From Roseospira marina (lineage in GTDB: Bacteria > Pseudomonadota > Alphaproteobacteria > Rhodospirillales > Rhodospirillaceae): a stretch of 64,000 nucleotides of DNA. The translations under genes were made by a program, and so were the position numbers. Below the pieces are notes generated by a model, which made no database searches, was not told the origin of the DNA, and worked only from the letters and a program-made list of their open reading frames with translations. The stretch spans positions 1-64,000 of the forward strand of contig NZ_JACIGJ010000013.1 of NCBI RefSeq assembly GCF_014197855.1. Reading direction: 5' to 3'. Shown in pieces: positions 43,118-45,791 of this stretch; position 1 is the stretch's first letter; every line of letters starts with the position of its first letter.

Positions 43118-44476
43118 ATGACGATGACGATTCAGGACCTGGCCGCCAAGTACGATCTGCGCCTGCCGCGATACACCTCCTATCCGACGGCGCCGCACTT
43201 CTCGCAGGAGGTCGGTCCGGAGACCTACGCGCGATGGCTGGGCGAACTGGATCCCGCCACGCCGCTGTCGCTGTACACCCACATCGCCTATTGCGAGGAG
43301 ATGTGCTGGTTCTGCGGCTGCCACACGAAGATCACCAAGCGCTACGACCCCGTCGCGGACTACCTGGACGCGCTGCTGACCGAGATCGACATGATCGCCG
43401 GCCTGATGCCGGCGCGCATGGGCTTCAAGTTCATGCACTTCGGCGGCGGCAGCCCCACCGTGCTGAAGGCGGAGGACTTCACCCGCCTGATCCGCCACCT
43501 GCGCGACCGCTTCGAGATGCTCGACGGCGCCGAGATCGCGGTGGAGATGGACCCGCGCACGGCGACCGAGGACTACGTCAAGGCGATGGCCGAGGTCGGC
43601 GTGACCCGCGCCAGCATCGGCGTGCAGGACTTCGAAGCCCAGGTGCAGGAGGCCGTCCACCGCGTCCAGCCCTATGAACTGGTCGCTCAGGTGGTCGAGT
43701 GGCTGCGCAAGTACGGCATCACCGACATCAACATGGACCTGATGTACGGCCTGCCGTTCCAGACCACGGAAAGCATCCAGCACACCATCGACCGCGCCCT
43801 GGCGCTGAAACCGCGCCGGGTGTCGTACTTCGGCTACGCGCATGTGCCGTGGATGCGCACCCACATGAAGATGATCCCCGAGGACGCCCTGCCCAGCGTG
43901 CCGGAACGCTGGAGCCAGTACCTCAACGGCTCGGCCCGATTCGCGCACAACGGGTACGTCACCGTCGGCCTGGACCACTTCGCCGCCCCGGACGACGAGT
44001 TGGCGCTGGCCCTGAACAAGCAGGCCCTGCACCGCAACTTCCAGGGCTATACCACCGACAGCGCCCCGGCGCTGGTGGCCTTCGGCGCCTCGGGCATCGG
44101 CTCGCTGCCGCAGGGCTACGTCGGCAACCAGGGCGAAATCGGCGCCTATAAGCGCACCGTCCGCGCCGGTACGCCGCCCATCACGCGCGGCCTCGCCATC
44201 AGCCATGACGACAAGCTGCGCCGCGCCATCATCGAGCGCCTGATGTGCGACCTCGGCGTCGATCTGGAGACGGTGGCGGCGGAATACGGCGCCAAGGCCT
44301 CGGACTTCCAGAAGGAGCTGGACCAGCTTTCCGATCTGGAGGCCGACGGTGTCGTGATCCGCGACGGCTCCCGCCTGCGCGTGACCGAGATGGGCCGCCC
44401 GCTGGTCCGCGCCGTGTGCGCCAAGTTCGACCAGTACCTGAACGTGGGCGAAAAGCGGCACAGTCAGGCGGTCTAG
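43118..44476 (+). CDS. hemN: Oxygen-independent coproporphyrinogen III dehydrogenase
   Basis: A 452-residue radical SAM enzyme that decarboxylates two propionates of coproporphyrinogen III to vinyls, the anaerobic route to haem and bacteriochlorophyll. The Fe-S cluster is held by C59, C63 and C66 in CEEMCWFCGC, with the extra Cys68 typical of true HemN. Other marks are PRYTSYPTAPHF at the N-terminus, HFGGGSPT, DLMYGLPFQTTES and the C-terminal HemN domain. Low-oxygen or redox control would fit its job; a PpsR-type site and a promoter lie upstream. A hairpin follows the stop. Confidence 0.97.
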   Translation: MTMTIQDLAAKYDLRLPRYTSYPTAPHFSQEVGPETYARWLGELDPATPLSLYTHIAYCEEMCWFCGCHTKITKRYDPVADYLDALLTEIDMIAGLMPARMGFKFMHFGGGSPTVLKAEDFTRLIRHLRDRFEMLDGAEIAVEMDPRTATEDYVKAMAEVGVTRASIGVQDFEAQVQEAVHRVQPYELVAQVVEWLRKYGITDINMDLMYGLPFQTTESIQHTIDRALALKPRRVSYFGYAHVPWMRTHMKMIPEDALPSVPERWSQYLNGSARFAHNGYVTVGLDHFAAPDDELALALNKQALHRNFQGYTTDSAPALVAFGASGIGSLPQGYVGNQGEIGAYKRTVRAGTPPITRGLAISHDDKLRRAIIERLMCDLGVDLETVAAEYGAKASDFQKELDQLSDLEADGVVIRDGSRLRVTEMGRPLVRAVCAKFDQYLNVGEKRHSQAV

Positions 44477-44560: not shown

Positions 44561-44909
44561 TTGTGCGTGTACACGCAAGCGAACGCTCGGGCTGTTGGTC
44601 GATTCGCCCACAGCTGGTCCGCATACCGGCAACCGTCCTGTTGTCTTGCAACCGGAACCTTTTTTCTGCGCCGAACGCGGCGGGCGATCCCCGCCGGCCC
44701 GGATCCCGGCTTTTCGGCGCCCAGCCCCTTCTTTCGATAGCAAGTTCTGGCCCCAGAGCGCGGAAAAGACCCGGCCGACTCGGAGGGCCAGTCCGGCCAC
44801 CGCGGGGTTTTTCTCGGCCCCGGGCTTGCCAGCAACCATCGCATACCTGCATAGTTAATGGGCGCATTGGATCAGGGCGCACCGATGTTGTGCGGAGGGG
44901 AGCAAGGCT
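44561..44909. other. Intergenic region before the cold-shock/hemerythrin-like gene
   Basis: About 350 bases without a supported gene. It contains a perfect 14-base palindrome, TGCGTGTACACGCA, at 44564-44577, and otherwise ordinary GC-rich DNA. Frames on both strands are open through much of it but none is recognisable as protein. Confidence 0.4.
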
Positions 44910-45791
44910 GTGACCCAGGTTACTGTGAAGTGGTACAACCCGAAGAAAGGGTTTGGCTTCGTTCGTCCGGACGAAGGACTCCCGGACGCATTCCTACACG
45001 TGTCGGCGGTGGAGGCCCGTGGCCTGGACCGCCTGCCGGAGGGGACGCTCCTGGACTGCACTCTGATTGAGGGTCCCAAGGGCTGGGAGGTGCAGAGCAT
45101 CGACGCGGTGATGGAGGTGCCGGAGCCGGCACACGCCGCCGACCCCACCGCGATCAGCGACGCGTGCCCGGGTGTGGTGAAGTTCTTCAACGCCTATAAA
45201 GGCTTTGGATTCGTCACCCGGGACAGCGACCAGGCGGACGTGTTCGTACACGTGCGCACTCTGGAGCAATGCGGCCTGTGTGATCTGGTGGAGGGCCAGA
45301 TCGTCAGCATGGCCGTCAGCGAAGGGCCGAAGGGCCTACAGGCCGACCAGATCGCCGTGGTGGCTGAGCCGGAGCGTGCGTCCGGGCCACTGCTGCGGTG
45401 GCGCGCGGCCTACGCCGTGGAGGATGCCGACACCGATGCCGAGCACCGCGAACTGGTGACGCTGGCCAATGCCCTGCACGACCGCTGGGCCGCCAACGCC
45501 AACCGCGACGAGTTGGCGCGTCTGTTTGACCGCCTGCTCGCGAGCGCCGTCTGTCATCTGGACCGCGAGGACGCGCGGCGCGGCTTCGGCCCCGGCGAGC
45601 CGCTCAGCGCCAGCCGCTGGAACTGGATGAAGGACATGGCGGACTTCCGCCAGCGTAGCCTTGCCACGCCACGCCCGCCGCGGTTCACCGAGGATATGGC
45701 GGAGTTCCTGCGGGCCTGGGTCACCGCGCACATCCTGGCGGAGGTTGGCGGCCAGCCGCACGTCGTCGAGGTCGCGGCCGCCCAGGGGTAA
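44910..45791 (+). CDS. Two cold-shock domains fused to a hemerythrin-like domain
   Basis: A 293-residue protein. Cold-shock domain 1 (about 2-67) has RNP1-like KGFGFVRP and RNP2-like DAFLHVSA; domain 2 (about 87-151) has KGFGFVTR and DVFVHVRT, so single-stranded nucleic acid binding is expected. The C-terminal third (160-280) aligns with bacterial hemerythrins: WRAAYAVEDADTDAEHREL, CHLDRED and AWVTAHILAE. Of the usual metal ligands, His179, His216, Glu220 and His274 remain, while the two His of the third helix are replaced (around W239 and M243) and the final Asp is lost. It may therefore bind metal weakly or only keep the helical fold. The GTG start follows GGAGGGG. I do not know this combination as an established family. 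Confidence 0.85.
   Translation: MTQVTVKWYNPKKGFGFVRPDEGLPDAFLHVSAVEARGLDRLPEGTLLDCTLIEGPKGWEVQSIDAVMEVPEPAHAADPTAISDACPGVVKFFNAYKGFGFVTRDSDQADVFVHVRTLEQCGLCDLVEGQIVSMAVSEGPKGLQADQIAVVAEPERASGPLLRWRAAYAVEDADTDAEHRELVTLANALHDRWAANANRDELARLFDRLLASAVCHLDREDARRGFGPGEPLSASRWNWMKDMADFRQRSLATPRPPRFTEDMAEFLRAWVTAHILAEVGGQPHVVEVAAAQG

Follow-up and report, generated by a model that had tools for sequence, protein, structure and literature searches.

The gene at 44,910 to 45,791 of the window, the whole 64-kb stretch of Roseospira marina DNA analysed here, raises the question of what a hemerythrin-like domain is doing at the end of a protein that otherwise consists of two cold-shock domains. Fusions of hemerythrin domains to output domains for chemotaxis or cyclic-di-GMP are known. 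A first-pass annotation of the locus had proposed that oxygen or redox state, sensed by such a domain, could control RNA binding by the cold-shock half, and had pointed to the neighbouring hemN gene. The main parts of the gene are as follows.

44910 to 45791, forward strand: gene for the protein of two cold-shock domains and a hemerythrin fold (GTG start, 293 amino acids; orthologues in 6/6 genus genomes, its own included)
44910 to 45113, forward strand: cold-shock domain 1, residues 1-68, with KGFGFV and DAFLHV motifs (PF00313; PDB matches)
45168 to 45365, forward strand: cold-shock domain 2, residues 87-152, with KGFGFV and DVFVHV motifs (PF00313; PDB matches)
45390 to 45743, forward strand: hemerythrin-fold domain, residues ~161-278 (NCBIfam, PDB, domain model with Foldseek, and orthologue matches)

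The reading frame and residues are as first annotated, with the stop codon ending at 45791, and the two cold-shock domains are both full. The PF00313 profile matches the protein in two stretches (E 4.6e-30; 103.7 bits over the whole protein, passing a cut-off of 27), and bacterial cold-shock proteins are the best PDB sequence matches of residues 1-68 and 87-152. Among the six orthologues, 51 of the 68 columns of the first domain and 53 of the 66 of the second are invariant. The GFGFV and F-x-H motifs, which we take to be RNP-type motifs, are the same in each domain of every orthologue (6/6). With these motifs intact, and from what is known of the family, both domains would be expected to bind single-stranded RNA or DNA.

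Assignment of the C-terminal part is less immediate, as the Pfam profile responds weakly: PF01814 reaches E 3e-4 and 21.7 bits, below its cut-off of 25.3. Two other profiles match more strongly, namely the NF033749 bacteriohemerythrin model (E 7e-12, 45.6 bits, under a curated cut-off of 84) and TIGR02481 (E 9.4e-12, 45.1 bits, under a curated cut-off of 51.75), and a sequence search finds PDB entry 4xpx at E 5.9e-6. All six orthologues match at E ≤ 0.1 with both PF01814 (best 3.4e-5) and NF033749 (best 1.3e-15). A six-frame PF01814 search of the R. marina genome at E 0.001 returned six other genes and not this one. Genus genomes hold 4 to 7 such six-frame matches each, and the fused gene is among them in three genomes, where it scores 22.5-23.3 bits by itself and passes the cut-off only once neighbouring pieces are counted in (25.3-27.6). 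The window's gene and the two remaining orthologues are not among the matches.

Structure prediction agrees with these matches. Modelled alone, the domain folds into four long helices (pTM 0.76). Foldseek ranks hemerythrins, of the 4xpx group and DcrH, in the first six places of its PDB matches, at E 2.5e-3 to 6e-2 and TM 0.59-0.65 by query length, with no PDB match under E 1e-3. The full-length model, built from six orthologues, is poor over the hemerythrin domain and only moderate overall (pTM 0.41), too low to place the domains mutually; the best 50 of its 577 PDB matches are cold-shock or related nucleic-acid-binding proteins, with no hemerythrins among these. We regard it as confirmed that residues ~161-278 form a hemerythrin fold, which is a real and conserved part of the protein, degenerate as the first-pass annotation had described it.

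The fusion is a property of the genus. A relative spanning both parts is present in 6/6 Rhodospira/Roseospira genomes, those of Roseospira navarrensis, Roseospira visakhapatnamensis, Rhodospira trueperi and two uncultured Rhodospira in addition to the R. marina window. Five orthologues, that of R. marina included, are complete and open to the end; the sixth, from a metagenome-assembled genome, stops at residue 251 through a contig end and is open as far as it can be read. The full protein was searched against 60 relatives, 199 genomes of the order and 398 of the phylum, which are overlapping sets, at E limits of 1e-3, 1e-15 and 1e-20 respectively, scoring at most 12 candidates per genome in the second set and 6 in the third. 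Among the matches listed, both parts were spanned by genus members only (6, 4 and 1 in the three sets). No fusion was found outside the genus at the limits used, through which more divergent independent fusions could escape. Matches in genomes beyond the genus cover either the cold-shock pair or a separate hemerythrin; none of those on the cold-shock side extends beyond residue 197, and those passing residue 170 (G056, G033, G465 and G773) read through stops.

Of 10 loci returned by a genome-collection scan for close relatives, 5 are the fusion. The hemerythrin part alone has matches in 18/289 genomes of the class, and a cold-shock motif scan of 54 hemerythrin loci was positive only at L123, itself the fusion, with 30/30 controls positive. 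In a plasmid search 60 records matched, none covering 80% of the protein, and the longest among the matches listed reach residue 191. Three Mesorhizobium plasmid records (H1 to H3) carry dual cold-shock matches that extend to residue 175-191, beyond the second cold-shock domain. An ordinary dual cold-shock gene is also present in all six genus genomes. As a side observation, one genome (G470, contig C6) encodes a dual cold-shock protein at 104735-105199 and, ~3.5 kb away on the opposite strand, a hemerythrin of the nearest stand-alone type at 108720-109091. G470 is one of 8 genomes listing both genes; in the remaining 7 these lie on different contigs or megabases apart, and the closeness in G470 is possibly chance.

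Trees of the two parts indicate where each came from. The fused hemerythrin domains make up a single clade (100/100) in a tree of 61 such domains, with a long stem that amounts to 1.88 changes per column. Its neighbours there are bacteriohemerythrins of the stand-alone type from one other family of the order (shared fork 97/93), the order within the fork not being settled by the tree. A smaller tree with fewer rows agrees (98/81), and the fused domain is ~32-37% identical to these nearest stand-alone relatives. A tree of 48 cold-shock pairs likewise gathers the fused ones in one clade (99/97) apart from the ordinary dual cold-shock proteins of the genus, its deeper order being unsure because long branches meet there. 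These relationships are consistent with a genus-specific nucleic-acid-binding protein whose C-terminal four-helix bundle would descend from a stand-alone bacteriohemerythrin and would have been fused to a dual cold-shock protein before the split of the genus members sampled.

What the bundle could do depends on its metal-ligand positions, which are these.

45444 to 45446, forward strand: His179, a retained ligand (6/6 orthologues)
45555 to 45569, forward strand: His216 and Glu220, retained ligands (6/6 orthologues)
45603 to 45617, forward strand: Leu232 to Arg236, site of the lost HxxxH pair (register dependent on the placing of a 3-residue deletion)
45729 to 45746, forward strand: His274, retained (5/5 readable orthologues), with Val279 in place of the bridging Asp

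Of the seven diiron ligands (five His, one Glu and one Asp), four are kept: His179, His216, Glu220 and His274. In sipunculid numbering, His179 is the H25 position, His216 and Glu220 are H54 and E58, the lost pair is H73 and H77, His274 is H101 and Val279 is D106; the Fe2 side would then retain two His and the Glu, and Fe1 a single His. The bridging Asp position holds Val in 4 and Thr in 1 of five orthologues, the sixth being cut by its contig end, and an alignment of the orthologues has no conserved His between Glu220 and His274. The loss of two metal-binding His and the final Asp, reported in the first-pass annotation, is therefore real and common to all readable orthologues. Since every readable species lacks three of the seven ligands, a standard diiron O2 site is unlikely in the fused protein, and oxygen or redox sensing through such a centre does not survive as the main reading of the idea raised in that annotation. 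The bundle is more probably a metal-free or single-metal interaction or regulatory module on a nucleic-acid-binding protein.

How the HxxxH site was lost depends in part on the alignment. In one alignment Leu232 and Arg236, invariant in 6/6 orthologues, occupy both His positions and the three-residue deletion lies in the preceding loop; in a second, which includes the nearest stand-alone relatives, the gap falls inside the pair instead. We prefer the first register because gaps fall more readily in loops. The fixed Leu and Arg would then suggest re-use of the site, where the Arg could replace the metal as partner of Glu220. Change on the HxxxH side is also seen in stand-alone proteins, as 6 of the ten nearest relatives examined have Gln for the first His of the pair, the remaining 4 keeping all seven ligands, HxxxH included. 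The Gln-type stand-alone bacteriohemerythrins, a six-ligand variant, are L072, L073, L093, L094, L096 and L097. The 49 'canonical' hemerythrins used for comparison (53 before removal of copies) were picked by a seven-ligand pattern, so that ligand conservation among them is circular, the pattern having demanded all seven; it also dropped the Gln-type relatives, which were later added and left the placing of the fusion unchanged.

The reading that we favour, at roughly even chances, is that a nucleic-acid-binding protein with two cold-shock domains has put a bundle of hemerythrin origin, lacking a diiron centre, to new use in assembly or regulation. On this reading, the bundle would have lost its O2-binding centre and stayed as a folded unit, which most likely associates with itself or binds a partner and in this way tunes or positions the RNA-binding half. 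Against it, a purely structural module has no need to keep four ligands, among them Glu220 and both His on the Fe2 side; moreover, the Leu/Arg assignment depends on gap placement, dN/dS values are rough, and the comparison covers six sequences of one genus.

The retained ligands are the starting point of the strongest alternative, which we consider possible and hold tentatively. Here a single Fe, Mn or Zn would be bound by the 2-His-1-carboxylate set of His179, His216 and Glu220, perhaps joined by His274, and metal supply or oxidation state would alter the bundle and thereby RNA binding by the cold-shock half. The first three residues are invariant in 6/6 orthologues and His274 in 5/5, though about half of the domain's columns vary, with 60 of 118 invariant across the six orthologues, and all have been kept in a domain only ~32-37% identical to its nearest stand-alone relatives. 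However, keeping 4/7 ligands is not clearly above background conservation, and an invariant Arg near the site, as one alignment places it, would disfavour a cation. Taken further, the idea leads to an RNA-binding regulator of a new class, in which a one-metal 2-His-1-Glu (perhaps 3-His-1-Glu) bundle gates cold-shock nucleic-acid binding. This we think unlikely, but if it were true, metal supply or redox state would set translation or RNA stability in purple bacteria.

A second alternative would have the bundle as a passenger domain, acquired by chance fusion and now decaying. The loss of ligands fits that account, as does a rate of change above that of the cold-shock domains: pairwise dN/dS has a median of 0.24 in the hemerythrin part (15/15 pairs), 0.06 (12/15 pairs defined) and 0.10 (14/15) in the two cold-shock domains and 0.53 (14/15) in the linker, values that are rough because synonymous differences are near saturation. 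Yet a ratio of about 0.24 is hardly that of a decaying domain, the frame is open throughout the readable orthologues, and the helix D segment RFTE[D/E]MAEFLRAWVTAHIL is the same in 5/5 orthologues save one position. Over these six sequences of a single genus, the pattern points to purifying selection on a hemerythrin part that is constrained and evolves faster than the cold-shock domains without decaying, and we consider a decaying passenger very improbable.

The surroundings of the gene bear on its regulation and on the proposed tie to hemN. Two features lie in its leader.

44826 to 44855, forward strand: promoter-like site TTGCCA-18-CATAGT (1 found against a mean of 0.1 in shuffles)
44862 to 44880, no strand assigned: inverted repeat GCGYN-N10/11-NRCGC (outer position of the window's copy unpaired)

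Upstream of the six orthologues, TTGYCA is kept in 6/6 and CATAGT in 4/6. In the inverted repeat (window copy plus L008-L012), 29/30 cells pair and 2/5 pairs change on both sides. The repeat could be a DNA operator or a 5' RNA hairpin; despite the covariation, the hairpin is not settled because shuffles match its five scores in 9, 74, 9, 471 and 9 of 500 cases and because four leaders show no unusual folding energy (z 0.17, 0.06, -0.96 and -0.14). No Rfam leader element was found at gathering score between 42.5 and 48.5 kb.

The hemN gene does adjoin the locus, as the first-pass annotation had said, and ends at 44476, 433 bases upstream, but the link drawn from this is weak. Among the five other genus genomes, in one of which only the upstream side is readable, hemN flanks the fused gene only in R. 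navarrensis, and different genes flank it in the other four; an operon or functional link with hemN was rejected on these differing neighbours together with the gene's own promoter-like site. Downstream, on the other strand, lies a chemotaxis receptor with a Cache domain. Control by FNR was also rejected, as the stretch from 38.5 to 51.0 kb contains no FNR-like palindrome even when up to 2 mismatches are allowed. The whole window holds 17 such palindromes against 7.8 expected, none of them exact. Control of RNA binding by a functional diiron centre that senses O2 or redox state, which the fold and kinship and the known role of bacterial hemerythrin domains as O2/redox sensors joined to output domains (PMC9388753, available text) would favour, is very improbable, since one of three His would be left at Fe1, Val or Thr stands at the bridging Asp position, the hemN neighbourhood is not conserved and the gene has no FNR-like site.

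The first-pass annotation knew of no described family that combines hemerythrin and cold-shock domains, and no description of such a fusion was found among open-licence PubMed Central papers, nor any paper there on the lost metal ligands. The pairing is not named in section 6 of PMC4919030, whose main text (figures and supplement apart) contains 'cold' 0 times, or in the available text of PMC9388753. The protein is small, found in cultured strains and easily tested.

Compared with known systems, the fused protein shares parts with three groups. Dual cold-shock proteins of Alphaproteobacteria likewise have two tandem domains, for example Caulobacter CspD, which is induced in stationary phase (PMC4830024, available text). 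Those of the order are ~36-49% identical to the fused protein over roughly residues 4-150, but lack the hemerythrin part in any genome listed, and the cold-shock part of the fused gene is a separate long-stemmed clade, distinct from the genus's ordinary gene. Single-domain bacteriohemerythrins (NF033749, 4xpx and stand-alone proteins of the same order) have the same fold and ~25-37% identity along the domain, unlike which the fused domain has neither the HxxxH pair nor the bridging Asp. The available text of PMC4919030 counts 56 architectures of long O2-binding hemerythrins, the commonest being with MCP, GGDEF or HAMP-MCP. Hr-MCP proteins such as DcrH, Bhr-DGC and Bhr-HD-GYP resemble the fused protein in joining a hemerythrin domain to an output domain; in contrast to these, its output is a cold-shock pair and its ligand set is incomplete. 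Kept genus-wide after the loss of diiron ligands, this fusion would represent either a post-transcriptional output for a sensor fold or the re-use of the bare fold.
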